Shown here: positions 1,376-42,253 of the stretch, one piece after another
How the letters are laid out: each line of letters begins with the position of its first letter
How positions within the stretch are numbered: the stretch's first letter is position 1
NCBI RefSeq assembly: GCF_004402485.1
Contig: NZ_SOFG01000017.1
Location: 1 to 64,000 of the forward strand
Origin: Cryobacterium algoricola
GTDB lineage: Bacteria; Actinomycetota; Actinomycetes; Actinomycetales; Microbacteriaceae
Direction of reading: 5' to 3'
DNA length: 64,000 nt
Position numbers and translations under genes: made by a program
Notes under the pieces: model-generated
The model's database searches: none
What the model saw: the letters and a program-made list of their open reading frames with translations, nothing else
What the model was told of the DNA's origin: nothing

Positions 1376-1454
1376 GAATTCGACGGAGTTTCTGCGTTTC
1401 CGGCACGTGGGAGGCCGGTTTCGGGCCGAAAACCCTCACAACTTCGTCGAATCC
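1376..1454. repeat. Intergenic inverted-repeat element, member 1
   Basis: Left arm gaattcgacggagtt (1376-1390) pairs with aacttcgtcgaatcc (1440-1454), 13 of 15 positions. An inner GTTTCGGGC...CGAA segment resembles the core of the element at 42175. It lies between two convergent genes, and the mannosidase stop codon (1436-1438) sits just before the right arm, so the arm lies in the last codons of that gene. This is the most diverged of five members; it may act as a bidirectional terminator or be a short mobile repeat. Confidence 0.6.
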
Positions 1455-4400
1455 ATTCGGGGGTAGCGGAGGGTGAGGAGCTGGAACGGCCGCAACTCGA
1501 TGTCGACGGCGGGCCCGGTTTGCGCGAGCGGAAGTCCGGGCTCGGACAGCCGGCGTTCGAGCAGGTCGGTCGGGTAGGCATCCGCTGCCTCGAAACGGCG
1601 GATCACCCTGGCCCGCGCCCGGGACCCGTGCGCCTCGTAGATGCGCACGATCAGGTCCCCGCTGCGGTCCTCGGCGAGCTTGACCGCCTCGATCACCACG
1701 GCCGGGTTGTCGACCTCGAGGAGCGGGTCGATGCCGTCGTTCGCGACACCGGTCACAGTGCGGAGCGGGAGGTTGAGCCGGTAGCCCTCGGTGATCGCGT
1801 CGGCGATGGTCGCGCCCGGGCGCACCGCGAGGCGGAACGAGTGCCGTCCCTGGTCGGCCCCGGGATCGGGGAAGAGTGCCGCGCGCAGCAGCGACAGCCG
1901 CACGGTCGTCGTGGCGCGGCCGCCGGCATCCGTCGAGCGGCCGATGTCGTGCCCGTAGGTCGAGTCGTTCGCGACCGCGACCCCGTAGCCGGTCTCGCCG
2001 ACGTGCACCCAGCGGTGCGCGCAGGTCTCGAAGCGGGCGGTGTCCCAGGAGGTGTTCGCATGCGTCGGGCGGTAGACGTGCCCGAACTGGATCTCCGAGG
2101 CGGCCCGCTCGGCGTGCACGTCGAACGGGAACTCGATCTTCAGGAGCTTCTGGCGTTCGTGCCAGTCGACGTCGAAGACGAGGTCGAGCGTCGGGGAACC
2201 GGCGGCGAGGGTGATCTGCTCCACGAGGCGGGAGGCGCCGAAGACGCGGGTCACCCGCACGCAGGCCTCGGCGGGCGTGTCGGTCACGACCTCGACCGAC
2301 ACCGCGGCATCGAGCGGAACGCTTGCGCGCTTGTAGTGGGCGTCGATGTCCCAGGCGTCCCACTGGGTCGGGGTGTCGCGGTGCAGCAGCAGCCGGTTGC
2401 CGCGCGTGCCCGAGGGGATGAGCTCCCGGTCGGCGACGAGGTCGCGCAGGGAGGTGAGCAGTCCCTCGGCGTCGATCGTGGCGCTGACGAGGGCGTTGGC
2501 GAGCACGAGCAGGCCGGACGCGGTGCGGGTCACGGTCGCGGGGGCATCCGCCGGACCGTTCTCGTCGGCCGCGGAGGCGCCGAAGGCCGGCACCCCGTGC
2601 TGCGCGTAGGGGCCCGCATTGAGCGACACTGTGCGGTCGCCGGCGCCGCAGAGAGCGGTCACGGATGCCGCGATGAGTCCCCCGAGGTCGCGCGCGACCT
2701 CCGCGTAGTGCCGTTCGGCCTCCTGGTGCACCCACGCGATCGAGGAGCCGGGCAGGATGTCGTGGAACTGCTGGAGCAACACGGTCTGCCAGGCTCGCTC
2801 GAGCGCCTCGTATGGGTAGGCGGCCCCGGTGCGGATGCTCGCGGTCGCCGCCCAGAGCTCGGCTTCGCGCAGGAGGTGCTCGCTGCGCCGGTTGCCGCGT
2901 TTGGTGCGGGCCTGCGAGGTGTAGGTGCCGCGGTGGAACTCGAGGTAGAGCTCGCCGGACCAGATCGGCGCCTCGGGGTACTCGGCCTCCGCGGCCTCGA
3001 AGAACCGGCGGGGCGTGGAGAGCTCGACCGTCGGGGACCCCTCGAGCGAGGCGGTCCGGCGTGCGGCCGCGATCATCTCGGCCGTCGGCCCGCCCCCACC
3101 GTCGCCCCAGCCGAACGGGACGAGCGAGGTATTGGCCATGCCTTTCTCGGAATATTGGGCCTCTGCGCGGGCGAGGTCCGCGCCGGAGAGGTCGGAGCTG
3201 TAGGTGTCGACGGGCGGGAAGTGCGTGAAGATGCGGGTGCCGTCGATGCCCTCCCACCGGAAGGTGTGGTGCGGCATCGGGTTCGTCTCGTTCCAGGACG
3301 ACTTCTGGGTGAGGAACCAGCGCGATCCCGCCGCCGCGATGATCTGCGGGAGCGCCGCGGAATAGCCGAACGAGTCCGGCAGCCAGACCTCGAGCGGCTC
3401 GATCCCGAACTCCTCGAGGAAGAACCGCTTGCCGGCGACGAACTGCCTGGCGAGGGATTCCCCGCCCGGCATGTTCGTGTCCGACTCGACCCACATCCCG
3501 CCGACGGGCACGAAGGCACCCGCGGCGACCTGCGCCCGCACCCGGTCGAACAGTTCCGGGTAGTGCTCCTTGAGCCAGGCATACTGCTGGGCGGATGACG
3601 CGGCGAACGTGAATCCGGGATGTTCCTCGGCCAGGGCCAGCACGTTCGAGAAGGTTCGGGCGACCTTGCGCACCGTCTCCCGTACCGGCCAGAGCCAGGC
3701 GCTGTCGATGTGGGCGTGCCCGACCGCGTGCACCCGGTGCGCGCTCGCGACGGCGGGTTGCGCGAGCGCGGGGGCGAGCACCGCCCGCCCGGCGGCCGCG
3801 GACCCGGACACGTCCTCCGGGTCGAGCACGTCGAGGCAGCGCTCCAGGGTGCGCAGGATCCCGACCGCCCGCGTCGATCCCGCGGGCAGGGCGCGACGGA
3901 GCCCGTCGAGGGCGAGGACGTCCTGCAGCAGCTCCCACACCTCGTCGTCGCGGAGAGCGAGATCGAGCTGTCGCAGCCGGTAGAGCGGTTCGGTGCCGGC
4001 CGTGGCCGGGTCGCCGTTCCGGGTCGGCACGAACGTGAAGCCCGCGGTGACGTCGGGGTTGGCGGCGGCCTCGACGTAGAAGTCGACGGCTCCAGGGCCG
4101 CCCGCGTCGTCCGAGGTGTCCGGGGCGCTCGGCGCGTCCGCGGCGTCGGAGATGACAGGGGTATCCGATGATCGCGGCGTTAGGAGCGCGAGGGGCAGGG
4201 TCCGGTTGCGCGGCGCGATGCCCTTGATCACGGTGCCCGTCGCGGTCCACGCGATGCCCTCCGCCTGGAAGCCCGGGGCCGCGTCGGAAAAGCCGAGGTC
4301 GACGACGGCCTCGATCCGGGTGCCGGGCTGCCCGGCCCAGTCGGCCGGGATCGCGCCGGTCGCGTGGAACCAGACCGTTCCCCAGGGGCGGCCCCATGCC

Positions 4401-4591
4401 TCGCCGAGGGCGAACGGGGTGTAGGACTGCCGGACGGCCTTGACGACGGTCGCCGGGGCATCCGTCACCGGAGCCGTCGACACCCAGGCCGAGACCTTCA
4501 GCGGCACGGCCGCGCGGTACACGGCCGGCCGCAGCCGTTCGCGCAGGAACCGGTCGATGCGCTTCTGGATCAGTGCGGCCTCGTCGTCCAT
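1436..4591 (-). CDS. Alpha-mannosidase, glycoside hydrolase family 38
   Basis: A 1051-residue retaining alpha-mannosidase, normal length for bacterial GH38 enzymes. GH38 needs a divalent metal: H292-A-H294-I-D296 is the metal-binding motif, and D371 in the WVESDTNMPGG segment fits both metal ligand and catalytic nucleophile. The N-terminal 250 residues match the usual all-beta region, followed by the catalytic barrel, helical bundle and C-terminal beta domains. No signal peptide is visible, so it probably trims mannosides in the cytoplasm after uptake. The ATG at 4591 is chosen because the sequence MDDEAALIQKRIDRFLRERL is a typical family start. Its stop touches a palindromic element, and it stands alone between two such elements. 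Confidence 0.93.
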   Translation of the reverse strand: MDDEAALIQKRIDRFLRERLRPAVYRAAVPLKVSAWVSTAPVTDAPATVVKAVRQSYTPFALGEAWGRPWGTVWFHATGAIPADWAGQPGTRIEAVVDLGFSDAAPGFQAEGIAWTATGTVIKGIAPRNRTLPLALLTPRSSDTPVISDAADAPSAPDTSDDAGGPGAVDFYVEAAANPDVTAGFTFVPTRNGDPATAGTEPLYRLRQLDLALRDDEVWELLQDVLALDGLRRALPAGSTRAVGILRTLERCLDVLDPEDVSGSAAAGRAVLAPALAQPAVASAHRVHAVGHAHIDSAWLWPVRETVRKVARTFSNVLALAEEHPGFTFAASSAQQYAWLKEHYPELFDRVRAQVAAGAFVPVGGMWVESDTNMPGGESLARQFVAGKRFFLEEFGIEPLEVWLPDSFGYSAALPQIIAAAGSRWFLTQKSSWNETNPMPHHTFRWEGIDGTRIFTHFPPVDTYSSDLSGADLARAEAQYSEKGMANTSLVPFGWGDGGGGPTAEMIAAARRTASLEGSPTVELSTPRRFFEAAEAEYPEAPIWSGELYLEFHRGTYTSQARTKRGNRRSEHLLREAELWAATASIRTGAAYPYEALERAWQTVLLQQFHDILPGSSIAWVHQEAERHYAEVARDLGGLIAASVTALCGAGDRTVSLNAGPYAQHGVPAFGASAADENGPADAPATVTRTASGLLVLANALVSATIDAEGLLTSLRDLVADRELIPSGTRGNRLLLHRDTPTQWDAWDIDAHYKRASVPLDAAVSVEVVTDTPAEACVRVTRVFGASRLVEQITLAAGSPTLDLVFDVDWHERQKLLKIEFPFDVHAERAASEIQFGHVYRPTHANTSWDTARFETCAHRWVHVGETGYGVAVANDSTYGHDIGRSTDAGGRATTTVRLSLLRAALFPDPGADQGRHSFRLAVRPGATIADAITEGYRLNLPLRTVTGVANDGIDPLLEVDNPAVVIEAVKLAEDRSGDLIVRIYEAHGSRARARVIRRFEAADAYPTDLLERRLSEPGLPLAQTGPAVDIELRPFQLLTLRYPRMDSTKL

Positions 4592-4615
4592 GCCAGCATC
4601 CTACGACCGCCGGCG

Positions 4616-4711
4616 GGGGCTAACTCAGGAGATCCGCACCGGCCAGTCCGGAACGCCGCACTGTTCCGCGGTCCCGGCTGAGTATCCCGGCAGATCTCCT
4701 GAGTTAGCCCC
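4616..4711. repeat. Intergenic inverted-repeat element, member 2
   Basis: Perfect 19-bp arms ggggctaactcaggagatc (4616-4634) and its complement (4693-4711) flank a 58-nt core. The core holds a GGA-ACGCCGCACTGTTCCG stretch that matches the core of the element at 21690. It lies upstream of the mannosidase start and 47 bp beyond the 3' end of the MFS gene. The centre can fold into a second hairpin. Confidence 0.8.
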
Positions 4712-4757
4712 GCGCGGTCGCCGTGAGGCCGAGAGCGCGGTGGACACGGAGGGCGGG

Positions 4758-6248
4758 TCAGCCCAGGTGCACGATCTCGGGGGCGCCGACGAGGTCCGCC
4801 TTCGAGTGCTTGATCATGAAGAACGAGATCGGGGCGGCAAGCAGGATCAGCCCGGCCGCCCAGAGGAACGCGACCGAATACCCGCTCACGAACGCGTCGA
4901 GCTGAACGGTCGGCGTCGCGGGGTTCGAGGACAGGTAGCTCGAGATCGCGGCGGTGTACAGGGCGGTGAACAAGGCGGTGCCGATCGATCCGCCGATCTG
5001 CTGCGTCGCGGAGACGGCGGCACTGGCCACGCCGGCGTCGTGCGCGTCGATGCCGGCGAGGGCGACGTTCTGCAGCGGCACGAAGATGGCTGCGAGTCCG
5101 ATGCCGAGCAGGATGACGCCCGGCAGCACGCGCAGGACATAGTCGTCCTGGACCGTGACGAAGGACAACCAGGCGAGCCCGGCGGCGGCGATGACCGGGC
5201 CGATCGTCAGGGGCAGGCGCACGCCGACCTTCGGCAGGATGCCGGAGAGCGCGGTCGCGCAGACCATGATGGTCGCGGTCATCGGGAGCGAGGCGAGCCC
5301 GGAGCGGAGCGGCGAGTAGCCGAGCACGATCTGGAAGTACAGGGTGAGGAAGAAGAGCCCGCCGAGGAGGCTCGCGCCGGTGAGCAGCGAGACCAGGAAC
5401 GCGCCGCCGCGGACCCGGTCGGTCACGACCCGAAGCGGAAGCAGCGGGTTCGTCGCCCGGGCCTCGACGATAACGAAGGCCACGAGCAACACGACGCCGA
5501 GGGCGAGGAAGCCGATCGTCTCGACCCGCCCCCAGCCGTTCTCCGCCTGGCTGAAGCCGTAGACGAGGGACGCGAGGCCGGCGACGATGAGGATCACGCC
5601 GGGCAGGTCGTAGCGGGTGTTTCCGTGCGCACGACTCTCGTGCATCAGCGGGATCGCGGCGAGGATCGCGACGAGGGCGATCGGCACGTTGACGAGCAGG
5701 CACCAGTTCCAGCTGGTGAACTCGGTGAGCACGCCGCCGAGCACGAGGCCGACGGCCGCTCCACCGCCGCCGATCGCGCCATAGACGGCGAATGCCTTGA
5801 TCCGGTCCTTGCCACCGGGGAAGGTGATCGTGAGGATCGCGAGCGAGGCCGGGGCGAGCAGGGCGGCGAACGCGCCCTGAAGTCCGCGGGAGATCAGCAG
5901 CTGGGTGGTGGTGTCGGCGAGGCCACCGATCATGGATGCCAGCGCGAAGCCGGCCATTCCGACCAGGAAGGAGCGCTTGCGGCCCCAGTAGTCGGCGATG
6001 CGGCCGCCGAGCAGCAACAGGGAGCCGAAGGCGAGCGCGTAGATCGTGACGACCCAGGTGCGGTCGCCGTCGCTCATGTCGAGGGCGATCTGGGCCTTCG
6101 GCAGGGCGATGTTGACGATGGTTCCGTCGAGGACGACCATGAGCTGGGCGAGCGCGAGAACGGCGAGGAGCCACCAGCGGCGCGGGTGCGACGCGGGATC
6201 GGACAGGGGCGGGGTGGAGAGGGAGACAGCAGGAGCGGGGGAACTCAT
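4758..6248 (-). CDS. MFS drug-efflux transporter, DHA2 (14-helix) family
   Basis: A proton-driven multidrug exporter of the QacA/EmrB type. Motif VVLDGTIVNIALP in the first helix is diagnostic of DHA2, and about 14 hydrophobic segments follow, including the motif-C-like GPVLGG relative GLVLGGVLTEFTSWNW. The 496-residue length fits. I start at the ATG at 6248: an upstream in-frame TTG (6269) lies inside the operator palindrome that separates this gene from the divergent tetR gene. The arrangement is the classic one of a TetR repressor controlling a divergent efflux pump. The substrate is unknown. Confidence 0.88.
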   Translation of the reverse strand: MSSPAPAVSLSTPPLSDPASHPRRWWLLAVLALAQLMVVLDGTIVNIALPKAQIALDMSDGDRTWVVTIYALAFGSLLLLGGRIADYWGRKRSFLVGMAGFALASMIGGLADTTTQLLISRGLQGAFAALLAPASLAILTITFPGGKDRIKAFAVYGAIGGGGAAVGLVLGGVLTEFTSWNWCLLVNVPIALVAILAAIPLMHESRAHGNTRYDLPGVILIVAGLASLVYGFSQAENGWGRVETIGFLALGVVLLVAFVIVEARATNPLLPLRVVTDRVRGGAFLVSLLTGASLLGGLFFLTLYFQIVLGYSPLRSGLASLPMTATIMVCATALSGILPKVGVRLPLTIGPVIAAAGLAWLSFVTVQDDYVLRVLPGVILLGIGLAAIFVPLQNVALAGIDAHDAGVASAAVSATQQIGGSIGTALFTALYTAAISSYLSSNPATPTVQLDAFVSGYSVAFLWAAGLILLAAPISFFMIKHSKADLVGAPEIVHLG

Positions 6249-6268
6249 CGAGACAGAAATCCTATTCA

Positions 6269-6284
6269 AACGAACTAGTTGGTT
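6269..6284. promoter_or_regulatory. Probable TetR operator between MFS pump and tetR
   Basis: AACGAACTAGTTGGTT is a 16-bp near-perfect palindrome (two mismatched positions) midway between the two divergent genes. A -10-like TATGAT (6293-6298) for tetR begins 8 bp later, so a bound repressor would block both promoters. Confidence 0.6.
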
Positions 6285-6305
6285 GGGATAGGTATGATCT
6301 TAGTC

Positions 6306-6878
6306 ATGAGAAGTGACGGCGAAGCGACCCGCGACCGAATTCTCGATGCCGCCCAGGCCGAGTTCGCCCGGTACGGCCTGGCCGGCGCCCGGGTCGACCG
6401 CATCGCCACGGCCGCGAAGGCGAGCAAGGAGCGCCTCTACGCCTACTTCGGCGACAAGGGCTCCCTGTTCACGGCCGTGCTCGAGGTGAACCGGCGCGAT
6501 GTGATGGCCGCCATCCCGATGGACACGAACGACCTGCCCGGCTTCGTCGGACGGGTCTTCGACCACGTCGTCGAGTACCCTGAGCACTCGCGGATGCTCG
6601 ACTGGGCCAGGCTCGAAGGCGCCGCCGCGCTGTTGCCGACGACCACGGAATGGCGCAACGGCCCGGAGGCGGCCGCGATCGCCGCAGCCCAGGCCCGCGG
6701 CGAGATCGACCCCAGTTGGGATCCGGAAGACCTCGTCACCCTCGTCTTCTCGCTCGCGACCTCGTGGGTGCACTCCCCCGGGGTGTTCCCGGCCCCGGGA
6801 GCCGAGCCGGCGGAATCCGTGCGCGACCGCCGCCGTGCCGCAGCGATCGTCGCCGCCCGCAAACTCATCGCCCCCTGA
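6306..6878 (+). CDS. TetR/AcrR-family repressor of the neighbouring efflux pump
   Basis: A 190-residue regulator. The N-terminal helix-turn-helix spans residues 8-50 (TRDRILDAAQ, then a recognition helix ending KERLYAYFGDKGSLF). The C-terminal half is the usual all-helical ligand-binding domain. It is divergent from the MFS gene with a palindromic operator between them, so it most likely represses both and is released by a pump substrate. The ATG at 6306 is preferred over a TTG at 6279 because it gives the usual family N-terminus and lies 7 nt after the TATGAT box, implying a leaderless transcript. A strong hairpin follows the gene. Confidence 0.88.
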   Translation: MRSDGEATRDRILDAAQAEFARYGLAGARVDRIATAAKASKERLYAYFGDKGSLFTAVLEVNRRDVMAAIPMDTNDLPGFVGRVFDHVVEYPEHSRMLDWARLEGAAALLPTTTEWRNGPEAAAIAAAQARGEIDPSWDPEDLVTLVFSLATSWVHSPGVFPAPGAEPAESVRDRRRAAAIVAARKLIAP

Positions 6879-6893
6879 GCCCGGGTCCCCGAA

Positions 6894-6919
6894 CGGTCGC
6901 GACGACACCGTCGCGACCG
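6894..6919. terminator. Hairpin terminator after tetR
   Basis: cggtcgcgacg and its complement form an 11-bp perfect stem with a 4-nt acac loop, 15 nt after the tetR stop. There is no T-run, as is common in high-GC actinobacteria. It lies between convergent genes. Confidence 0.65.
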
Positions 6920-6931
6920 AGTGAGCGGATG

Positions 6932-6950
6932 CCGCGGGCCGGCCCCGCGG
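6932..6950. terminator. Second hairpin between tetR and pckG
   Basis: ccgcggg / cccgcgg stem with a 5-nt loop, 7 bp beyond the pckG stop codon. It probably terminates pckG transcription from the minus strand. Confidence 0.5.
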
Positions 6951-6957
6951 ACCGCCC

Positions 6958-8995: not shown

Positions 8996-10438
8996 ATGCC
9001 GACTCGAGCCTCCGACCTCGTCACCCTGGGACTGCGCATCCGCCACTATCGCGGCGAGCGCGGCCTCACCCTCGATCAGCTCGGCGAGAGGGTCGGGCTG
9101 GCCGGCAGCCAGCTATCGCTCATCGAGAACGGCAGGCGAGAGCCGAAGCTGTCGATCCTGCAGGACGTCGCGACGGTGCTCGGCGTTCCGATCGCCGACC
9201 TGCTCAACGGCGAGGCGCCGAACAAGCGGGCCGCGCTCGAGATCGAGCTCGCGCGCGCTCAGAAGAACCCGCTCTACGGTGCGCTCGGCTTGCCCGAGGT
9301 CAAAGTCACCAAGGGGATGCCGGTCACGGCCCTCGAGTCGCTCATCGGGTTGCACCGTGAGCTGGCGCGGCGGGCGAGCGAGGCGATCGCGACGCCGGAG
9401 GAGGCCAGGCGGGCGAACACCGAGCTGCGCGAGCTCATGCGCGAGCAGAACAACTACATGCCCGACATCGAGCAGCTCGCCGAGGACCGGGTGCGGGCGT
9501 CCGGCCACGTCTCCGGAGCCCTCACACACCGCGAGGTGAGCGTGATGGCGGAGCAGCTCGGCTTCAGCCTGATCTACGTCAACGACCTGCCGAACTCGAC
9601 CCGCTCGGTGACCGACCTCGTCAACCACCGGATCTACCTCCCGCCGGCGTCGATCCCCGGCGGTCATGGGCTGCGGTCGATGGCGCTGCAGGCGATGGGG
9701 CACCGGCTGCTCGGTCATGAGCGGCCGGCGAGTTACGCCGAATTCCTCTGGCAACGGCTGCAGATCAACTATTTCGCGGCCGCGTGCCTGATGCCGCCCG
9801 CCGCGTCGGTCGCGTTCCTCGCGCGCGCGAAACGCGAGCGCGAGCTCTCGGTCGAGGACTTCCGCGACGCCTTCGGCGTCACCCACGAAGCTGCGGCACT
9901 CCGCCTGACCAACCTCGCGACCTCGCACCTCGACATGCCGCTGCACTTCCTCAGGGTCAACGGTGACGGCGCCCTGCAGAAAGGCTACGAGAACGATGGA
10001 CTGCCGCTGCCGGTCGACGTCACCGGTTCGATCGAGGGCCAGTTCGTCTGCAAGCAGTGGAGCGCCCGCAGCGCCTTCACCCACACCAACCGCACCACGG
10101 AGTTCTACCAGTACACCGACACACCGGTCGGAACCTTCTGGTCGGCGACCCAGACCGGCGCGGCGGACGGCGGCGAGTTCTCGATCAGCGTCGGGGTGCC
10201 GTTCGTGCACGCCAAGTGGTTCCGCGGTCGCGAGACCGTGCAGCGGGCGGTGTCACGCTGCCCCGACGAATCCTGCTGCCGCCGCCCCGCCTCCGACCTG
10301 GCCGCGCACTGGGCAGGTCACGCCTGGCCGAGCGCACGACTGCACGCCCACGTGCTCTCGCCCCTGCCGAGCGGTACCTTCCCCGGCGTCGACGACACCG
10401 AGGTCTACGAGTTCCTCGAGGCCCACGCCACCAGCTGA
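8996..10438 (+). CDS. RamB/ScfR-type XRE regulator of short-chain fatty acid metabolism
   Basis: A 480-residue regulator. Residues 10-65 form an XRE helix-turn-helix (LTLDQLGERVGLAGSQLSLI). The middle (about 150-300) is an IrrE-like zinc-peptidase-derived domain, with H-R-L-L-G-H where a metalloprotease would have HExxH, so it is probably non-catalytic. The C-terminal 160 residues form the DUF2083 region of RamB and ScfR proteins, including a cysteine cluster CPDESCC that could bind metal. RamB proteins sense acyl-CoA or acetate status and control acetate, glyoxylate and propionate genes. Divergence from pckG suggests that pckG is a target. An AAGGA ribosome site precedes the ATG directly. 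Confidence 0.85.
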   Translation: MPTRASDLVTLGLRIRHYRGERGLTLDQLGERVGLAGSQLSLIENGRREPKLSILQDVATVLGVPIADLLNGEAPNKRAALEIELARAQKNPLYGALGLPEVKVTKGMPVTALESLIGLHRELARRASEAIATPEEARRANTELRELMREQNNYMPDIEQLAEDRVRASGHVSGALTHREVSVMAEQLGFSLIYVNDLPNSTRSVTDLVNHRIYLPPASIPGGHGLRSMALQAMGHRLLGHERPASYAEFLWQRLQINYFAAACLMPPAASVAFLARAKRERELSVEDFRDAFGVTHEAAALRLTNLATSHLDMPLHFLRVNGDGALQKGYENDGLPLPVDVTGSIEGQFVCKQWSARSAFTHTNRTTEFYQYTDTPVGTFWSATQTGAADGGEFSISVGVPFVHAKWFRGRETVQRAVSRCPDESCCRRPASDLAAHWAGHAWPSARLHAHVLSPLPSGTFPGVDDTEVYEFLEAHATS

Positions 10439-21660: not shown

Positions 21661-21689
21661 GCCGACAGCCTAGGCCCGTCGGTGCTGTT

Positions 21690-21790
21690 CCGAATTCAGG
21701 AGTTGAGGTCCGGAACGGCACCGACGGGACCGGACTGCCGCACTGCTCCGGGGCCGCCCCTGCCGCAGCCGCCTCAACTCCTGAATTCGG
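21690..21790. repeat. Intergenic inverted-repeat element, member 3
   Basis: Perfect 19-bp arms ccgaattcaggagttgagg (21690-21708) and its complement (21772-21790) around a 63-nt core. The arms are the same as those at 42175 apart from the last base. The core CGGACTGCCGCACTGCTCCG matches the core at 4616. It lies between the thiolase start and the 3' end of the methyltransferase gene. Confidence 0.85.
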
Positions 21791-21836
21791 CACAAGCCAG
21801 GGGCAGAGGAACGGGCGGGCGGATGCGCGGCGCGGG

Positions 21837-28407: not shown

Positions 28408-28493
28408 GGTTACCTCCTGCTTATCGTGGTGGCGGGAGGCAGCATTACCTCCCATCCCCACTTCGGGAGTTACCCCTCATCCGGATGCACCCA

Positions 28494-28587
28494 GGCATAA
28501 CTCCTGCAGATTTCCGCGTGGCCGGTGCGGCGCCCTGGAATTCCGCGGCAGGAATCCCGGCCGGCCGGAATCTGCAGGAGTTATGCC
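28494..28587. repeat. Intergenic inverted-repeat element, member 4
   Basis: Arms of 23 and 22 nt (28494-28516 and 28566-28587), complementary except for one extra T, around a GC-rich core containing GGTGCGGCG. The nicotinamidase stop codon (28581-28583) lies inside the right arm, so the element overlaps a gene end, as member 1 does. Confidence 0.8.
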
Positions 28588-29192
28588 ACTTGGACGGGCG
28601 GGAGGGCCGCGGCCGTGGTCGAGAGGAGCGCTCCGGCGTAGGCGAGGGCGGCGAGGGCCTCGGCACTCGCGTCCGGGTGGACGCCGACCACGAGGTCCGT
28701 GAGCACACGCACCCGCTGGCCGTGCTCGAGCGCGTCGAGGCCCGAGGCTCGCACACAGTGATCGGTCGCGATGCCGACGACGTCGACATCCGTCACTGCG
28801 TGCTCGATCAGCAGCTCGCCCGTACGAGTGCCGGAATCGTCGACGCCGGCGAAGATCGAGTACCCCGGTTCGCCCTGTCCCTTGCGGATGTGAACGGTCC
28901 CGGCCGGCAGCGCGAGGTCCGGGTGGTAGTCGGCGCCTGCGGTATCCGCGACGCAGTGCACCGGCCAGGTGCCGATGTAGTCGGGCTCGGCGCCCGCCGC
29001 CGCGAAGTGGCCGCCGTTGTCGCCCGCCGCGTTGTGCCAGTCGCGCGAGGCGAAGACGAAGTCGTAGTGCAGCGGATGCCCCGCCAGCAGCCTGCTGATG
29101 CCTGCGGCCACGGCCGCCCCGCCATCGACCCCCAGGGCGCCGCCCTCCGTGAAGTCGTTCTGCACGTCGATGATGAACAAGGCCCTGGTCAC
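28581..29192 (-). CDS. pncA: Nicotinamidase / isochorismatase-family hydrolase
   Basis: Converts nicotinamide to nicotinate for NAD salvage. All key residues are visible: catalytic D9, K104 and C146 (GIATDHCVRASG), and metal ligands D51, H53 and H62. The 203-residue length is typical. It starts with GTG at 29192. The gene is probably in one transcription unit with the upstream dacB gene (36-bp gap) but is functionally unrelated. Confidence 0.92.
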   Translation of the reverse strand: MTRALFIIDVQNDFTEGGALGVDGGAAVAAGISRLLAGHPLHYDFVFASRDWHNAAGDNGGHFAAAGAEPDYIGTWPVHCVADTAGADYHPDLALPAGTVHIRKGQGEPGYSIFAGVDDSGTRTGELLIEHAVTDVDVVGIATDHCVRASGLDALEHGQRVRVLTDLVVGVHPDASAEALAALAYAGALLSTTAAALPPVQVA

Positions 29193-35494: not shown

Positions 35495-36478
35495 CTATTC
35501 GCCCGGATAGCGCAGTCCGATCCGTTCCCGGACGGTGTCGAGGGTCTCCATGATGCTCACCATCTCCGCGACCGGGAGCAGGTCGCTCTCGGTGAGGCCG
35601 GCGCGGATGACCCGTTCGGCTTCGACCGCCTGGAATTGCATCCCACGACCGGTCACGGCCGACACGTACGATTCGAGCACCTCACCGCTGCTGTTCAGCA
35701 CCCGGAAACTCGTCGGCGAGTACCAGACCGCGTCGATCTCGATCCGGCCGAGGGTGCCCAGGATCACAGCCGTGTTCGTCCCTGCCGTGTCGCTCGCGGA
35801 GAGTGTGACGGCGATCTGGCCGCCCGGGTAACGGAAGGTCGTCGCGACCTGGGCATCCGCTCCCGTCGCCTTGAAGGTCGCCGCGGCGAGGATGGTCTCC
35901 GGCGTCCCGAAGAGCTCGGAGGCGAAGGTGATCGGGTACACGCCCAGGTCGAGCAGCGCGCCGCCGCCGAGCTGCATCGAGTTGAGCCGGTGCCCCGGAT
36001 CGTCGGGGAGGTCCTGGGTGTGGTCGGCGATCAGGGTGTGCACGTCGCCGAGGGTTCCCGCGGCGATGATCTCCCGGATTCGCCGCATGTGCGGCAGGAA
36101 CCGGGTCCACATCGCCTCGAGCACGAACAGGCCCTTCTCGGCCGCGAGTTCGGTGATCTCCCTGGCCTCGCGCGCGTTGAGCGTGAGCGGCTTCTCGATC
36201 AGCACGTGCTTGCCGTTGTTCAGGGCGAGCGTCGCGTTGGCGGCGTGAAACGGATGCGGGGTCGACACGTAGACGATGTCGACCTCGGGGTCAGCAGCGA
36301 GGGCCTCATAGCTCCCGTGGGCGGTGGGGATCCCGAATTCCGTCGCGAAGGCATCCGCCCCGGCCTGGGACCGGGACCCGACGGCCTGGACCGTGTGCCC
36401 GTGGAGAATCAGGTCATTCGTGAACGCATGGGCGATCCCGCCCGTTGCCAGGATTCCCCAGCGAATTGTCTCGGTCAT
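35495..36478 (-). CDS. Gfo/Idh/MocA-family NAD(P)-dependent oxidoreductase
   Basis: A 327-residue dehydrogenase. The Rossmann domain starts RWGILATGGIAHAF, with GSRSQAGADAFA, VDIVYVSTPHPFHAAN and the conserved EKPLTLNAREA (the Lys of the EKP motif is catalytic). The C-terminal alpha/beta domain binds a sugar or inositol-like substrate (GGGALLDLGVYPITFASELFG). It resembles the dihydrodiol/xylose dehydrogenase subgroup. The substrate cannot be stated. It stands alone, 23 bp downstream of the sulfur-enzyme pair on the same strand. Confidence 0.88.
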   Translation of the reverse strand: MTETIRWGILATGGIAHAFTNDLILHGHTVQAVGSRSQAGADAFATEFGIPTAHGSYEALAADPEVDIVYVSTPHPFHAANATLALNNGKHVLIEKPLTLNAREAREITELAAEKGLFVLEAMWTRFLPHMRRIREIIAAGTLGDVHTLIADHTQDLPDDPGHRLNSMQLGGGALLDLGVYPITFASELFGTPETILAAATFKATGADAQVATTFRYPGGQIAVTLSASDTAGTNTAVILGTLGRIEIDAVWYSPTSFRVLNSSGEVLESYVSAVTGRGMQFQAVEAERVIRAGLTESDLLPVAEMVSIMETLDTVRERIGLRYPGE

Positions 36479-36501
36479 GCTCAGAGCCTAGTCAGGTGCC
36501 G

Positions 36502-37890
36502 CTACAGCGCGGAGAGGGCGCGATCGAGGTCGGTGATCAGGTCGGTCGGGTCTTCGATGCCGATCGACAGCCGGATCAGTCCCGGCGCGATGCCGAGCCG
36601 GTCGCGGACCTCGGGCGTGAACGAGGAGTGGGTCGTCGTCGCGGGGTGCAGCGCCATCGAGCGGACGTCGCCGATGTTGGTCATCCGGCTGATCACCCGC
36701 AGGCCGTCGAGGAACCGGCGGGCTCCCGCCGAGCCGCCGCGCACTGTGACGGAGAAGACCGAGCCGCTGCGGCCGCCGTAAAGCCGTTCGGCGAGCTCGT
36801 GGTACGGACTGCCGGGCAGGCCGGCGTAGTCGACACTGTCGACGCGCGGATGCCCGTCGAGCCACTCCGCGATGGTGAGCGAATTCGAGAGGTGCCGTTC
36901 CATCCGGAGCGAGAGAGTCTCGATGCCCTGGTGCAGCAGGAAGGAGTTGAACGGGGAGAGCGCGGGACCGATGTCGTTCACGACGGCCTCGCGGGTCATC
37001 CGTGCGTAGGCGGTAGGGCCGTACTGCTCGAGGATCGAGGGCCGGCCCGGGCGCACCGGGTCAGTAAGCAGCGGGTAGGAGCGCGTGGAGGAGGCCCAGT
37101 CGAAGCGGCCGCCGTCGACGATGGTGCCGGACAGGGCGGCGCCGTGACCGCTCAGGAACTTCGTCGAGGAGTGCACGACGATGTCGGCGCCGTGTTCGAG
37201 GGGCCGGATCAGGAAGGGCGATGCGATCGTGTTGTCGACGACGAGGGGGATCCCGTGCCGGCGGGCGACGCGGGCGACCCGGGCGATGTCGACGATGTCG
37301 TTCTTGGGGTTCGGGATGGTCTCGGTGAAGATCGCCTTGGTGTCCGGCGTGATCTGGCGATCCCACTCGTCGTCGTCCGCTTCGTTCCAGACGTAGTCGA
37401 CGCTGACGCCGAAGCGTTTGAAGCTACGGCCGAAGAGGACCCGCGTGCCGCTGTAGATGCTCGCGGTCGAGACGATCCGTTCGCCGGAGCCGGCGAGCGC
37501 GAGCAGCGCCGCGGTGATCGCCGCCTGGCCGGACGAGACGACGATGGCCTCGGTGCCGCCCTCGAGGGAGGCTATCCGCTTCTCGGCGACGGTGCCGGAG
37601 GGGTTGCGCTGCCGGGAGTAGATGAGGCCGTCGCCCTCGCCGGAGAAACGCCCGGCGGCGTCGTCGTAGGAGTCGAACCGGTAGCCGGCCGTCATCGCGA
37701 TCGGCTGGATCCTGGCACCGTTGGAGCGGTCTTCCGTCTCGCCGGCGTGCACCTGGCGGGTGTCGAAGGCGTAGCCGTCCCAGTCGTACTCCGGAGCGGC
37801 GACGGTGTGCCCCGTGGTCGTGTCCCCGGGCGCGGTCTCCTCGAGGGTGGTGTCCTCGAGGGTGGGTTCGGTATCGGCCTGGTGGGTCAC
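36502..37890 (-). CDS. Cys/Met metabolism PLP enzyme, O-acetylhomoserine sulfhydrylase-like
   Basis: A 462-residue gamma-family PLP enzyme. The cofactor lysine is in VVHSSTKFLSGHG, with the YSRQRNPSGTVAEKRIASLEGG region and SSGQAAITAALLALAGSGE typical of O-acetylhomoserine aminocarboxypropyltransferases (MetY), which make homocysteine from O-acetylhomoserine and sulfide. Cystathionine gamma-synthase activity cannot be excluded. The first 40 residues are Thr/Glu-rich and disordered. I start at GTG 37890 because it overlaps the upstream stop as GTGA; the open frame to 38028 is antisense-like. It forms an operon with a PatB-type lyase. Confidence 0.87.
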   Translation of the reverse strand: MTHQADTEPTLEDTTLEETAPGDTTTGHTVAAPEYDWDGYAFDTRQVHAGETEDRSNGARIQPIAMTAGYRFDSYDDAAGRFSGEGDGLIYSRQRNPSGTVAEKRIASLEGGTEAIVVSSGQAAITAALLALAGSGERIVSTASIYSGTRVLFGRSFKRFGVSVDYVWNEADDDEWDRQITPDTKAIFTETIPNPKNDIVDIARVARVARRHGIPLVVDNTIASPFLIRPLEHGADIVVHSSTKFLSGHGAALSGTIVDGGRFDWASSTRSYPLLTDPVRPGRPSILEQYGPTAYARMTREAVVNDIGPALSPFNSFLLHQGIETLSLRMERHLSNSLTIAEWLDGHPRVDSVDYAGLPGSPYHELAERLYGGRSGSVFSVTVRGGSAGARRFLDGLRVISRMTNIGDVRSMALHPATTTHSSFTPEVRDRLGIAPGLIRLSIGIEDPTDLITDLDRALSAL

Positions 37891-39086
37891 GGTGTTCCTG
37901 TCGTCGTCTGGTTCCGCTGTGCGTGGTGCCGGTGCACGGCATCCGCCATCTGGGTCACGGCCTGCTCGAGGATCGGCCGGGGCATGGCGAAGATCAGTCG
38001 GACGTACCCTGCATAACCCTTCCCGCACTGCGCGCCGTCGGTCACCGCAACACCCGCCTCTGTGCGGAAGAAGTCGGCGAGCGACCCCTCGATACCGAGC
38101 CGCCTACAGTCGAGCCAGGCGATGTAGGTCGCCTCGGGGATGCGGTAGCCGACCTCGGGCAGGTGCTCCGCCAGGAGCCGCCCGAGCTCGAGGCGATTGC
38201 CGTCGAGGTAGCCGGTGACCTCGGTGAGCCACTCCCGACCGTGCCGATAGGCTGCCGCCGCAGCGATGACCCCCGGTGTCGAGGCGCCATGGAGCACCGC
38301 GAAACCGAAGATCTGGTAGAGCTCCTCGTCGGCGGGGTTGGACGTGATGAGCTGCGCGGCCTTGAGCCCGGGGATGTTCCAGGCCTTCGAGGCTGAGGTC
38401 GCGGTGATCGTGTGCCGGGCGGTCACAGTCGAAAGGGACGCGTACGCCACGTGCGGCGTGGACCCGTAGCGGAGCGGCGAATGGATCTCGTCGGCGAAGA
38501 CCCGGCCGTTGTGCCGGTCGACGATCACCGCGATGGCCTCGAGCTCCTCTCGGGAGATCGCGGTCCCGGTCGGGTTGTGCGGGTTGCACAGGATGAGGGT
38601 GCGCGCGCCGGCGTGGAAGGCCGCTTCGATCGCGACGAGGTCGTGCGTCCAGCGCCCGGCGGACTCGATGCCGGGCACCTCGAAGACCTCCCGGCCGAGT
38701 GTCGGGATGAAGGAGAGGAACGGCATGTAGGCGGGCGTCGGGATGATGACGCCGCTCCCGGCCGGGGAGTACTTCGTGATCGCGACCTCGAGGGCGGCCA
38801 TCACGTCGGACACCGGGTGGATGTTCTCCGGGGCGATCTCCCAGCCGCAGTCGGTGCGCAGCCAGTCGGAGGCGGCTTCGGCCATCCGCCGGGTGGTCGC
38901 GGGGGCGAGGTAGCCGAGGTCGCCGTCATCGATCGCCCGGTGCAGGGCTTCGGTGACAGCCGGGGCGGTTCCGAAATCCATCTCGGCGACCCAGGCGCCG
39001 ATGGTGCCGGCGTGCAGGCTCCACTTGCGGCTGTCGGCCCGGCTCAGCTGCTCGCGCGTGATCTCGTCAAAGCGGGAAGTCGTCAT
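37887..39086 (-). CDS. MalY/PatB-type cystathionine beta-lyase (aminotransferase fold)
   Basis: A 399-residue fold-type I PLP enzyme. The internal aldimine lysine is in ATSASKAWNIPGLKAAQ; WVAEMDF, CNPHNPTGTAI and DEIHSPLRY are signature segments of the MalY/PatB C-S lyases. These cleave cystathionine or cysteine conjugates to a thiol, pyruvate and ammonia. Coupled by GTGA to a homocysteine-forming enzyme, it fits methionine/cysteine interconversion. GGAGAG before the ATG lies inside a predicted leader hairpin. Confidence 0.88.
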   Translation of the reverse strand: MTTSRFDEITREQLSRADSRKWSLHAGTIGAWVAEMDFGTAPAVTEALHRAIDDGDLGYLAPATTRRMAEAASDWLRTDCGWEIAPENIHPVSDVMAALEVAITKYSPAGSGVIIPTPAYMPFLSFIPTLGREVFEVPGIESAGRWTHDLVAIEAAFHAGARTLILCNPHNPTGTAISREELEAIAVIVDRHNGRVFADEIHSPLRYGSTPHVAYASLSTVTARHTITATSASKAWNIPGLKAAQLITSNPADEELYQIFGFAVLHGASTPGVIAAAAAYRHGREWLTEVTGYLDGNRLELGRLLAEHLPEVGYRIPEATYIAWLDCRRLGIEGSLADFFRTEAGVAVTDGAQCGKGYAGYVRLIFAMPRPILEQAVTQMADAVHRHHAQRNQTTTGTP

Positions 39087-39094
39087 CAGAATCT

Positions 39095-39164
39095 CTCCGG
39101 TGGATGGCCGGAGGTGCCCCTGCCTGCCAAGTAGTGCTTGACCTGCACGCTACCAACTGCGTGC
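39095..39164 (-). promoter_or_regulatory. Structured leader of the patB/metY operon
   Basis: On the minus strand, CTCCGG...CCGGAG (39113-39095) forms a stem that contains the GGAG ribosome site of patB. A second stem GCACGC...GCGTGC (39164-39145) lies upstream. SD sequestration suggests translational control. It does not match the SAM riboswitch patterns I know. Confidence 0.35.
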
Positions 39165-39218
39165 GATGCGGGGAGTCTCGGTGCGACACATAACGACTCA
39201 GTGCGAGATCACGGCGAA

Positions 39219-39929
39219 CTAGCGCACGGTCGCGGTGCGGAGCGGCAACCAGATGCCCACCATCGCGATCACGACCAGCACGACGCCGGCGACGGCGAGC
39301 CACCAGAGCGCGAAGTTCGCGATCAGCACGGATGCCGACGGGAGCGCGATGATCAGGCCGACGATGATCAGGATGGCAGCGACGGCCGCGATCACCTGCG
39401 GGCCACGCGCCCCGAACCGCACCCAGGATGCGCCGAAGGCCCCGCCGACGCTCAGCAGGGCGAGCACCGAGAGGAAGACGATCGGGATCAGTTTCGCGAG
39501 GTCGCCGGCCCCGAGAATAGTGATGTCGAAGATGTAGAAGCCGGCGAACCAGTGCCCGGTGGCGAGCTCGAGCAGCGTCAGCACGGCGAACACCACGGTG
39601 AGGTAGGCGGCCTGCAGGATGTTCCATGCCAGGGTCCCCAGCGTGAACGCCCGCCGGGTCGCCCCGAGCGCCAGGGCGAACGGGAACGTGGTCGCGGCGG
39701 AGGCGACGCCCATGCTGACCAGGAACCCGGCAAGCGAGAACAGCATGCCGGTGTTGCTCCGGGACGCGTTGACCCACACCGTTGAGCCGGGCACGCTGCC
39801 ACCCCGCAAGAAGAGCAGTGAGATCAGGATCGAGATCACCACGACGACCGCGACGATGAAGAGCGGCACCAGGAGGGCGACCACGCGCCGGTTCAGGTGC
39901 AGTTTGACGACCGATGTGATGGCGTTCAT
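39219..39929 (-). CDS. ABC transporter permease (YtrC/ABC-2-like membrane protein)
   Basis: A 236-residue integral membrane protein with six hydrophobic segments and no recognised catalytic motif. Its gene overlaps the ATPase gene by 4 bp (ATGA), and a GntR/YtrA-type regulator heads the operon, the standard three-gene arrangement of Ytr-like transporters linked to cell-envelope stress. The substrate is unknown. GNTR control by envelope antibiotics is known for Bacillus YtrA; transfer of that role here is inference. Confidence 0.8.
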   Translation of the reverse strand: MNAITSVVKLHLNRRVVALLVPLFIVAVVVVISILISLLFLRGGSVPGSTVWVNASRSNTGMLFSLAGFLVSMGVASAATTFPFALALGATRRAFTLGTLAWNILQAAYLTVVFAVLTLLELATGHWFAGFYIFDITILGAGDLAKLIPIVFLSVLALLSVGGAFGASWVRFGARGPQVIAAVAAILIIVGLIIALPSASVLIANFALWWLAVAGVVLVVIAMVGIWLPLRTATVR

Positions 39930-40864
39930 GCTGCTGCCGCTTCCTTCTGCTGGGTGGTGCGGGTGGACTGGTGATCGGTGTGCTCCGCCGCGTTTCCGGC
40001 GGTAGCGCCGTATGCCGCGACGAGCTGCTGTAGGGAGGCGGACTCGACCTGCACTCCCGCCCGGCGGGCGTCGGCGAGGAGGGCCTCGTCGGCGATCCCG
40101 GTGACGGTCACCGAGCTGAGAGAGCCGATGGCGCGCGTTTGCAGGACCGTGCGGCCTGCGGTCAGCCGGCCGACGGCATCCGCTGCGCCGCTGATCACGA
40201 CCGCGAGTTCGCGGGCCTCGTCACGGTCGCAATCGACGGCCACCCGACCCGCGTTGAGAATGACAACCCGGTCGAAGAGCGACTCCGACTCGTCGATGAG
40301 GTGCGTCGAGAGCAGGATCGTGCGCGGATGCCGGCCGTAGTCCCGCAGGAGCACGTCGTAGAAGAGGGTGCGCGCTCCGACATCCAGACCGAGGTACGGC
40401 TCGTCGAAGAGGGTGACGGGGGCCCGGGAGGCGAGGCCGAGCACGATCGCGACGGCGGACAGCTGGCCACGGGAGAACTTCTTGATCGGCGTCTTCGCCG
40501 GGATCCGGAAGCCCTCGACGAGCTCGGCGGCGACCTCGGCGCTCCAGTCGGGTGCGAATTCGGGGGCGATCCGCAGCACGTGCTTGAGCTGGTAGTTGTC
40601 GGGGTAGCGCTGGTTGTCCCGGATGAAGCTGATCCGTTGGCCGGTGACCTCGTGCTCGAACGGGGTGTCGCCGAGCACGAGGGCCTCGCCGGAGGACGGC
40701 CGGTCGTGACCGGCGATGATCGACATCACCGTGGTCTTTCCGGCACCGTTGCTGCCGAAGAGCCCGCAGATCGAGCCCTCCGGCACACGGAAACTGACGT
40801 TGTCGAGAGCCGTGGCGTGACCGTAGGTTCGGGTCACGGCACGGATGTCGATGGCTGCGGTCAT
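39926..40864 (-). CDS. ABC transporter ATP-binding protein (YtrB-like)
   Basis: A 312-residue ATPase: Walker A GSNGAGKTT (about 36-44), signature FSRGQLS (a variant of LSGGQ), Walker B VTLFDEPYLGLD and switch histidine in LSTHLIDE. The C-terminal 90 residues form the extra domain of export-type ATPases. The ATG at 40864 is used; the frame extends to 41143 through antisense of the regulator. It pairs with the permease encoded next. A GntR regulator lies 20 bp upstream on the same strand. Confidence 0.9.
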   Translation of the reverse strand: MTAAIDIRAVTRTYGHATALDNVSFRVPEGSICGLFGSNGAGKTTVMSIIAGHDRPSSGEALVLGDTPFEHEVTGQRISFIRDNQRYPDNYQLKHVLRIAPEFAPDWSAEVAAELVEGFRIPAKTPIKKFSRGQLSAVAIVLGLASRAPVTLFDEPYLGLDVGARTLFYDVLLRDYGRHPRTILLSTHLIDESESLFDRVVILNAGRVAVDCDRDEARELAVVISGAADAVGRLTAGRTVLQTRAIGSLSSVTVTGIADEALLADARRAGVQVESASLQQLVAAYGATAGNAAEHTDHQSTRTTQQKEAAAA

Positions 40865-40883
40865 GAGAGAACTTCTTTCTCGA

Positions 40884-41318
40884 TCATCGGGTTGGGGTCT
40901 GGGAGTGGGGCTGATTCTGGGAATGGTTCTGATTCTGGGACTGCGACTGCGACTGCGACTGGGCATCGGTCTCGGCTGCGATAATCCGGGCGAGCTCGTC
41001 GGTCTCGATGCCGAGCACGTGCGCCTCGCGGACGAGGGGCTCGACGAACAGCACGCGGAACGCCGCGTGCCGCTGGGCGCTGAGCATGTCGCGGGCGCCT
41101 TCGGACACGAACATGCCGACCCCCCGTTTCTTGAACAGCACACCCTGCTCGACGAGCACGTTCACGGCCTTGCCCGCCGTCGCCGGATTCATCTGGTAGA
41201 AAATCGCGTACTCGCTCGCCGACGGAACGGCCGTGCCCTCCGGATACGTTCCGGCCACGATGTCGTTGGCGATCTGCGCAGCGAGCTGCTGGAAGATCGG
41301 GCTGCCTTCGGAAAACAC
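40884..41318 (-). CDS. GntR-family regulator, YtrA type
   Basis: A 144-residue one-domain GntR regulator: winged helix (SPIFQQLAAQIANDIVAGTY, recognition region NPATAGKAVNVLVEQGVLFKK) and a short helical tail, as in YtrA. It starts with GTG at 41318. The C-terminus is odd: residues 118-144 are Gln/Ser/Asn repeats (QSQSQSQSQNQN) from an imperfect hexanucleotide repeat at 40905-40965, which could change length by slippage. It heads an operon with an ABC ATPase and permease and has a palindrome over its promoter. Confidence 0.87.
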   Translation of the reverse strand: MFSEGSPIFQQLAAQIANDIVAGTYPEGTAVPSASEYAIFYQMNPATAGKAVNVLVEQGVLFKKRGVGMFVSEGARDMLSAQRHAAFRVLFVEPLVREAHVLGIETDELARIIAAETDAQSQSQSQSQNQNHSQNQPHSQTPTR

Positions 41319-41334
41319 CTGTACCCCTTTGGTC

Positions 41335-41350
41335 CATTACTACACTAATG
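41335..41350. promoter_or_regulatory. GntR/YtrA operator
   Basis: CATTA-CTACAC-TAATG is a perfect inverted repeat 17 bp upstream of the regulator start, in an AT-rich stretch likely to be its promoter. Autorepression is the usual mode for YtrA regulators. Confidence 0.55.
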
Positions 41351-41393
41351 AACCTATGGACCCGAGCCGGCCCTGTCAAGCCCGGCGGGACAT

Positions 41394-41430
41394 CCGCCTC
41401 CCCCGTCTTCAGGGGTGAGCACGGAGGCGG
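41394..41430. other. Nested hairpin between divergent regulators
   Basis: ccgcctcc (41394-41401) pairs with ggaggcgg (41423-41430), with cccc/gggg pairing inside. It lies in the 210-bp gap between the GntR and TetR genes. The role is unknown; it may insulate the two promoters. Confidence 0.35.
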
Positions 41431-41528
41431 TGACCACGCCTCGGGTCGCCCGACTGAAGACGCAATACGAAAAACTCTCACGCACACGGTTTTGCGATGG
41501 ACGGTGGGTTTCAGACTAGAGTCGCCGC

Positions 41529-42137
41529 ATGACTATGACGGGGAAGTCGCGTGGGTCCTATGCCAAAACAGCTGGGCGACGGCGGGAGATCCTGGAGGCG
41601 AGCATCGAGGTTTTCGCCAACCACGGGTTCCGGAATGGATCGCTGCGTGAGATCGCCGAGCGGGTGGGAATGAGCCAGGCCGGCCTGCTGCACCACTTCT
41701 CGAACAAGAACGAGTTGCTCGCGGGCGTGCTCGAGCTGCGTGACGAACGCTCCGTGGCGCTCGTCCCCCTCGACGAAACGCCCGGCATCGAGACGATTCG
41801 CGGCATGGTGCGCGCCGCGGAATACAACGCCGAATTCGCCCCGGGGCTTGTCGAACTGCACTGTGTGCTCTCTGCCGAGGCGACGGCGCCAGAGCACCCG
41901 GCCCACCAGTACTTCGTCGACAGGTACACCTGGGTGGTTTCCCTGATGTCCGAGGCATTCACCAACGCTCAGGCTGCCGGTCAGCTGCGCGAAGGGGTCG
42001 ACCCGCGGAGCGCCGCCCGGTCGCTCATCGCGCTCAGCGACGGCCTGCAGGTGCAATGGCTACTTGCCCCGGACACCCTCGACATGGCGGAGGAGCTCCG
42101 GAGTTTCCTGCGCCCCCTCTTTACGATCGACTTCTAG
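41529..42137 (+). CDS. TetR-family regulator
   Basis: A 202-residue TetR protein: helix-turn-helix at about 12-55 (TAGRRREILEASIEVFANHG, recognition region GMSQAGLLHHFSNKNELL) and a helical C-terminal domain. No palindromic operator is obvious in front of it. It is divergent from the GntR/ABC operon and convergent with the heme operon, so its target is unclear; it may regulate a distant gene. Confidence 0.85.
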   Translation: MTMTGKSRGSYAKTAGRRREILEASIEVFANHGFRNGSLREIAERVGMSQAGLLHHFSNKNELLAGVLELRDERSVALVPLDETPGIETIRGMVRAAEYNAEFAPGLVELHCVLSAEATAPEHPAHQYFVDRYTWVVSLMSEAFTNAQAAGQLREGVDPRSAARSLIALSDGLQVQWLLAPDTLDMAEELRSFLRPLFTIDF

Positions 42138-42174
42138 CCCGTTCCCCCGGCGCCCTCACCGGCCCGGTGATGTT

Positions 42175-42253
42175 CCGAATTCAGGAGTTGAGCGCGGATT
42201 CAGCCGGGAAAGCGCTTGTTTCGGGCGCGAACCCGCTCAACTCCTGAATTCGG
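42175..42253. repeat. Intergenic inverted-repeat element, member 5
   Basis: Perfect 19-bp arms ccgaattcaggagttgagc (42175-42193) and its complement (42235-42253) around a 41-nt core containing GATTCAGCCGGGAAAGCG and TTTCGGGCGCGAACCCG. It lies between the convergent tetR and hemH genes, where it could terminate both. Confidence 0.85.

Follow-up and report, generated by a model that had tools for sequence, protein, structure and literature searches.

Among dispersed bacterial repeats, the closest described counterpart of the elements reported here is the partnership of repetitive extragenic palindromes (REPs) with REP-associated tyrosine transposases (RAYTs), in which the rayt gene is always flanked by two REPs, gene and repeat coevolve, and the occurrence of rayt and REPs is correlated (PMC2817692). 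Correia and ERIC elements, which are miniature inverted-repeat transposable elements (MITEs), offer a second comparison. In Paramecium, the lengths of internal eliminated sequences (IESs) show a ~10-bp periodicity that has been taken to reflect looping of the DNA between two bound ends (PMC3464196), and AbiEi antitoxins, which belong to type IV toxin-antitoxin systems, bind inverted repeats (PMC7319586). Here, we analysed a 64,000-nt stretch of Cryobacterium algoricola (contig NZ_SOFG01000017.1, positions 1 to 64,000; hereafter the window), which holds five inverted-repeat elements (E1 to E5), and found that they belong to a large family whose lengths change in whole helical turns and whose arm types recur on both sides of the genes of one nuclease family. 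On balance, we think it somewhat probable that these elements are double-stranded DNA sites of that site-specific nuclease family, each subfamily having its own arm sequence, which suggests an enzyme-and-repeat partnership hitherto undescribed in bacteria.

The present elements share with RAYT-REP systems scattered intergenic palindromes, clusters of copies, an enzyme gene bracketed by two copies, and an enzyme subtype that matches the repeat subtype (PMC2817692). They differ in that the enzyme is a predicted PD-(D/E)XK nuclease with a weakly AbiEi-like N-terminus, whereas RAYTs are HUH tyrosine transposases, and in that they are ~65-118 bp long, phased and mostly provided with a central motif, whereas REPs measure 20-40 bp (PMC3733652). 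REPs carry a GTAG- or CGTC-type tag; the arms here begin with GTGGCTAACTC, TGTTCCGAATTC or GGCGCATAACTC, and no formal tag search was made. Correia and ERIC MITEs are likewise short, non-coding and intergenic, with terminal inverted repeats and some copies at gene 3' ends (PMC10969869), but the helical-turn lengths and the pairing with a nuclease family set the present elements apart, and no parent insertion sequence (IS) was recognised among the matches listed. Paramecium IESs share the helical length periodicity and provide a precedent for the bridging of two ends; unlike the present elements, they are eukaryotic and excised by a domesticated transposase, and the available text of that account mentions no conserved centre motif (PMC3464196). 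As for AbiEi antitoxins, the N-terminal domain is weakly similar, whereas the C-terminus here is that of a predicted nuclease. A literature search, which covered the matches listed by their titles and abstract openings with most subscription journals lying outside it, returned no account of these elements or of a pairing between DUF559/MTES_1575 proteins and palindromes.

A first-pass annotation of the window had described the five inverted repeats as sharing arms and cores. All five were confirmed, far above chance as judged by counts of arm words and paired arms against controls. Their arms are indeed related, but they fall into four related types (T1, T2, T3 and T5) and not into one; core lengths are shared, and a centre motif is common to E2-E4 only. 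The suggestion of a MITE- or REP-like repeat was supported, as many more copies are present in the genome, the genus and the family. In the 4.15-Mb genome carrying the window (G000; other G labels denote related genomes and L labels denote loci), the arm word AACTCCTGNAT occurs 39 times versus 3 times for a reversed control word, and the T2 paired-arm pattern AATTCAGGAG-N48-78-CTCCTGAATT occurs 34 times versus 0 for its control. This pattern is present in 8 of 60 genomes, G000 included, all of the same genus, with at most 9 T2 elements in any other genome searched for T2. Of 57 genomes searched in the genus, 18 contain exact T1 core words and 28 contain exact T3 words; the reversed-control words of both searches had no match. 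A covariance-model search, proposed in the first-pass annotation as a way to find further copies, was run with a model (R1) derived from 45 elements in the 84-85 class and revealed many in the genome and in relatives of the family. R1 matched 52 distinct places in G000, and together with the T2 pattern and four others the count in this genome is at least 73 elements (based on at most 150 scored R1 candidates, R1 matches up to E 0.014 and 33 of the 34 T2 places typed). Within the family, R1 matched 66 of 199 genomes and 39 of 85 genera (E 0.001); within the order, it matched 11 of 198 genomes (E 0.0001), namely eight of the same family, G000 included, and three outside it (E 1e-7 to 5e-5; in one of them, the matches are only 65-69 bp long). 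At 18 of 19 loci inspected in other genera, we observed an inverted repeat with different arms in a similar layout. R1 had 0 matches in 80 named ferrochelatase loci (546 kb), which serves as a control for false positives but is also a negative result, because many of these loci are from the same family and the density in G000 predicts about ten. The elements have one architecture, with inverted ~20-bp arms, a central motif and variable spacers, and form a large scattered family; both the family and its phasing are established directly.

To describe element length, 240 entries were reduced to 218 non-redundant elements by removing 22 repeats of one element under another arm type or locus. The partner arm had been sought 60 to 190 nt away, elements were kept only when their arms paired at 14 of 20 positions, and the set is non-independent, many elements being of shared ancestry. 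The span from AACTC to GAGTT was 73-75 in 22 elements, 83-87 in 157, 94-96 in 27 and 106 in 2, so that 208 of 218 fell within four classes; several of the 10 off-class elements are situated in unrelated sequence and resemble repeats arising by chance. The Rayleigh length peaked broadly at periods close to 10.75-11 (0.881, n = 215 elements), and its value at 10.75 was 0.80 for the 58 elements outside the main mode. In entries centred on CAGTGC (n = 61), this mark lies 45-46 bp from one arm and 39-40, 49-50 or 60 bp from the other; with the dyad set 3 bp from the mark, one arm is ~42 bp away and the other 42, 52.5 or 63, and the corresponding distance in the 73 class appears to be ~31 bp, as read from the consensus. 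These arm-to-dyad steps match turns of B-form DNA, and length is quantised in whole helical turns, a pattern that points to double-stranded DNA. For the 84-96 classes, the centres were read as one motif, CCGCRYKRKTCCGSGG, in our consensus reading, and those of the 73 class and of T5 are looser or different. Elements of types T1-T5 mostly measure 87-110 bp.

The nuclease family was identified by clustering 396 proteins encoded next to the elements, in which it formed a group of 11 loci. Four genomes searched for it contain nine such genes (three in G000, three in G064, one in G072 and two in G005), and all nine have inverted-repeat elements on both sides. T1 elements flank the T1 nuclease gene of G000 (C26:7384-8268) and that of G064, T2 elements the T2 gene of G000 (C23:409k; L058:2159-3031), T3 elements the T3 gene of G072, T5 elements the T5 gene of G064, T6 elements the T6 genes of G000, G064 and G005, and T7 elements the T7 gene of G005; paralogues within one genome thus bear different arm types. 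For the four T1-T3 genes (two in G000, one in G064 and one in G072), the flanking elements come from genome-wide lists made without the gene, and for the five T5-T7 genes the repeats were detected by inspecting the flanks of the gene. Of 2,000,000 random 888-bp intervals in G000, 148 were flanked likewise, a figure that serves as a yardstick and not as a P value because the nuclease family was chosen after the fact; among the 50 called genes of the window, inverted repeats on both sides were observed only for the gene between E1 and E2. Over 18 loci, arm type tracks nuclease subfamily (five T1 genes, four T3, three T6 and one each of T2, T5 and T7, with other arms at the nuclease genes of three other genera), and this type-specific pairing is likewise a direct observation. 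Nine further nuclease loci were met via nearby elements, and six of them have elements on both sides. Protein and arm similarity were weakly correlated (Spearman 0.37, permutation P = 0.02, nine representatives). Copy numbers were also compared with nuclease content, and within the four genomes each type tended to be most frequent where its nuclease was found: exact T1 words number 17 in G064 and 8 in G000, where a T1 nuclease was found, versus 6 in G005 and 0 in G072, where none was found; exact T3 words number 19 in G072, with a T3 nuclease found, versus 8 in G000, 4 in G064 and 2 in G005, with none found; and the 34 T2 elements of G000, with its T2 nuclease, compare with 0 in G005, where no T2 nuclease was found.

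A Pfam scan of 16 nucleases (E 0.01) matched MTES_1575 in 15, DUF559 in 13, AbiEi_4 in 6, AbiEi_3_N in 3 and UPF0102 in 1, and no match to Y1_Tnp was detected in these proteins at the same threshold; the enzyme is not a Y1/HUH tyrosine transposase. The name MTES_1575 refers to a Vsr-type nuclease domain found in a protein of Microbacterium testaceum (PMC3710099). PADLOC AbiEi models matched six of six proteins weakly, and among solved chains the nearest was 3hrl, which is endonuclease-like (E 2.7e-6). In the alignment of the 16 nucleases, fifteen columns are invariant, including E195, D222, E232, D234, H239 and D248, which we read as putatively catalytic, as expected for an active PD-(D/E)XK enzyme. 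By these profile matches, the protein is predicted to combine a weakly AbiEi-like (winged-helix) N-terminus with a PD-(D/E)XK C-terminus (MTES_1575/DUF559). Since AbiEi antitoxins bind inverted repeats, the N-terminal domain is a plausible reader of the arms.

If the elements are double-stranded sites of these nucleases, a mechanism can be proposed for an arrangement in which the nuclease gene sits between copies of its own element and further copies are scattered among host genes, mostly near 3' ends. The nuclease would bind the two inverted arms, with the centre fixed or curved in a way that brings both arms to one side of the helix, and for this reason the spacer would change in whole turns. 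The nuclease, perhaps together with host repair, may then spread or maintain the elements, as is thought for RAYT enzymes and REPs. A more far-reaching proposal, to which we lend a little less than even credence, is that AbiEi-like PD-(D/E)XK nucleases are the engine of transposase-free dispersed repeats, each recognising its own palindrome, holding its two arms and its centre on one face of the helix, which would fix element length to whole turns, and seeding copies chromosome-wide. Solitary DUF559/MTES_1575 genes are abundant in actinobacteria, and if the proposal is true they gain a function, as an analogue of RAYT-REP that evolved independently. A DNA substrate would be named for a nuclease family of unknown function, the enzyme-plus-palindrome partnership would have a second, independent origin, and the spacer lengths of a few hundred elements would record the allowed geometries in a natural bacterial helical-twist experiment.

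Several observations weigh against assigning the elements to these nucleases. The nuclease group was picked after the fact from neighbours among which an ABC-transporter group was equally frequent (11 loci each) and spoU and thiolase groups were larger, the last two largely reflecting how the loci were searched. Its similarity to AbiEi at the N-terminus is weak (AbiEi_4 matched 6 and AbiEi_3_N 3 of the 16 proteins at E 0.01), three of the nine further nuclease loci have an element on one side only, and no T3- or T5-type nuclease was found in G000 despite its T3 and T5 elements. A T3-type nuclease is present in G067, G020 and G010, yet exact T3 words number only 2, 1 and 1, respectively, and these low counts slightly lowered our confidence in both proposals; the elements of these three genomes use variant T3 words. 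Moreover, syntenic comparisons revealed no clean empty site or target duplication, and in the sequence compared the closest within-genome copies proved to be tandem duplicates at one place or copies duplicated along with the adjoining gene, with no dispersed burst.

We compared the sites between species. Orthologues of E1 are exactly 89 bp long in G064 and G034, and the right half is replaced in G005; those of E2 are exactly 96 bp in G005, G034 and G064. In three close relatives (for E5, G005, G034 and G064), the orthologous position showed neither E4 nor E5, and at the E3 site, examined across 30 loci, different species have elements with other arms, or none. Elements are thus gained or lost between species, a directly established property. 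Such presence and absence between close species, together with terminal inverted repeats and scattered copies, would also be displayed by ordinary MITEs, that is, non-autonomous derivatives of DDE-type ISs for which the nuclease genes are passengers and the phasing comes from transposase synapsis of short ends; helical length steps have been reported for Paramecium IESs and short transposons (PMC3464196). We consider this explanation unlikely. The T1 and T3 arm matches listed from 57 genomes included no recognisable autonomous parent or other long element bounded by these ends, the sequence compared yielded neither dispersed near-identical copies nor a clean target duplication, and the bracketing of nuclease subfamilies by their own arm types is left unexplained.

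It is also improbable, in our judgement, that the elements are operators or chromosome-architecture sites of a host looping protein, with the nuclease autoregulated like AbiEi antitoxins and not moving them, although patterns of conservation are compatible with it. In 68 related pairs from the redundant set (pairs that are non-independent and were found via their arms), divergence was 0.11 in arms and 0.12 in the centre versus 0.27 in spacers. The syntenic sets agree: variable sites number 9/40 in arms, 1/16 in the centre and 15/40 in spacers for E2 in four species, and 5/40, 2/16 and 10/33 for E1 in three species, with exact length retained in both sets. At 13 of 18 loci, moreover, the ~180 bp upstream of the nuclease match include an element. 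However, several arm types share one genome, each with its own nuclease, elements lie downstream of nuclease genes as well, copies are missing in close relatives, and T2 is plentiful in G000 (34) and limited to 9 or fewer in the other genomes searched for it.

The first-pass annotation had taken compensated variation between members as a sign of selection on a hairpin, a conclusion that is not well supported. Between arm types, both arms co-vary strongly (154 cells changed on both sides versus 66 in shuffles). Within types, paired changes are little above expectation; the same deviation occurred in both arms at 72 of 509 deviating sites in T1 (58 expected for independent arms), 84 of 382 in T3 (63 expected) and 107 of 314 in T2 and T2b pooled (54 expected), counts that, like those of genomic context below, come from the redundant set restricted to the span classes. 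The excess is located at outer or subtype positions, as expected if each sublineage descends from a symmetric master, and matched changes are favoured because elements were retained only with arms paired at 14/20. At T3 core positions 6-16, paired deviations were found in 1 of 23, and at T1 inner positions 17-21 there were 35 versus 41 expected. Pairing within spacers was 0.31 versus 0.32 expected between elements (145 deduplicated elements). Because the spacers are unpaired and paired arm changes are weak, a protein-DNA site fits better than an RNA hairpin. For the Shine-Dalgarno-like AGGAG that the first-pass annotation had pointed out in the arms, nothing observed here lends support, although no search aimed at it was made. 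Among 229 entries, the context was tandem in 117, convergent in 67 and divergent in 24; a further 17 lie at locus edges and 4 within a called gene. Of 251 gene 3' ends next to an element, 13 extend 8 or 9 nt into it, which is the offset of TAA in T1 and T3 arms (confirmed by eye for E4 and L278). A role as bidirectional transcription terminators or RNA-processing hairpins, under selection at gene 3' ends, would accord with the long arms, the preponderance of convergent over divergent contexts and some excess of paired changes at outer or subtype positions, but is very unlikely in view of spacing fixed to ~10.5-bp steps, unpaired spacers, a conserved arm core with few paired changes, 24 elements between divergent genes, the bracketing of one gene family, and an Rfam search of the window at gathering scores that returned 0 matches and hence no known structured RNA.

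Within the window, each element adjoins at least one gene 3' end, as had been noted at first, but E2, E3 and E4 also lie upstream of gene starts, the next start called by our home-made gene finder being 25 bp (E2), 26 bp (E3) and 85 bp (E4) downstream of the element. Two elements, E1 and E4, do hold the stop codon of a neighbouring open reading frame (ORF), in agreement with the first-pass annotation. E1 (1371..1459, 89 bp; no strand is assigned to any of the five) has T5 arms (CTGACGAATTCGACGGAGTT..) and lies between convergent ABC-transporter and mannosidase ORFs, with ORF 1436-4591 terminating within it. E2 (4616..4711, 96 bp, span class 84) has T1 arms (GGGGCTAACTCAGGAGATC..; GTGGCTAACTCAGGAGATTC) and a centre motif at 4656..4671 on the plus strand (CCGCACTGTTCCGCGG), the site at which 1/16 central positions vary across four species. 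E3 (21686..21794, 109 bp, span class 95) has T2 arms (TGTTCCGAATTCAGGAGTTG..) and a centre motif at 21738..21753 on the plus strand (CCGCACTGCTCCGGGG), with its motif class read from the consensus. E4 (28492..28589, 98 bp, span class 84) has T3 arms (GGCATAACTCCTGCAGAT..; GGCGCATAACTCCTGCAGAT), one of which contains the TAA stop (28581-28583) of an isochorismatase/nicotinamidase-like ORF (28581-29192), and a centre motif at 28533..28548 on the plus strand (CCCTGGAATTCCGCGG), its class likewise being a consensus reading. E5 (42171..42257, 87 bp, span class 73) has T2 arms and lies between a TetR-type gene and a convergent ferrochelatase gene. An inverted-repeat scan of the window (at least 14/16 paired, 56-140 bp) found ten repeats, of which E2-E5 are the four with perfect 16/16 arms; E1, whose arm is more degenerate, is outside these ten.

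Candidate sources of the copies were also considered. Dispersed recent copies were rejected, as the best within-genome pairs in the sequence compared are local tandem duplicates or shared-flank copies beside DUF222-HNH paralogues. Elements at nine loci are mutually similar (L040, L041 and L042, at G000 C21 near 149k, 200k and 304k, and L170, L185, L189, L225, L233 and L239), and eight of these nine have a DUF222-HNH (13E12-like) neighbour; the three G000 copies share a long one-sided flank, and element and flank were probably duplicated together. A plasmid origin was dismissed after the whole element gave short, chance-level matches only against 48 Rhizobium plasmid records, and a phage origin after ten viral-contig matches of the 16-base arm had no partner above 10/16 within 150 nt; the nuclease itself had no match in plasmids and two weak matches in unannotated phage records. 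The one candidate noticed for an autonomous IS with the same ends, a 1.3-kb inward T3 pair (G003 C42), turned out to consist of two small elements next to a single gene. Elements often occur close together in twos or threes (L282, L292, L291, L222, L242 and L375), and such groups resemble composite REP clusters.

The T6 and T7 elements near nuclease genes (L374, L375, L378 and L377) have near-constant arm steps of 48 (once 49) and 54 nt. Over the 26 loci checked, T6 arms occurred as pairs solely beside nuclease genes, and T7 also elsewhere (L201 and L203). A palindrome of another type, TGAGGTGTCGCATATCGA, with a constant arm step of 39 nt, was detected at L201:886-942 and at L203:9132-9188 and 9293-9349 (G005 and G064), where it sits between the TetR-type gene and the ferrochelatase gene of these relatives.

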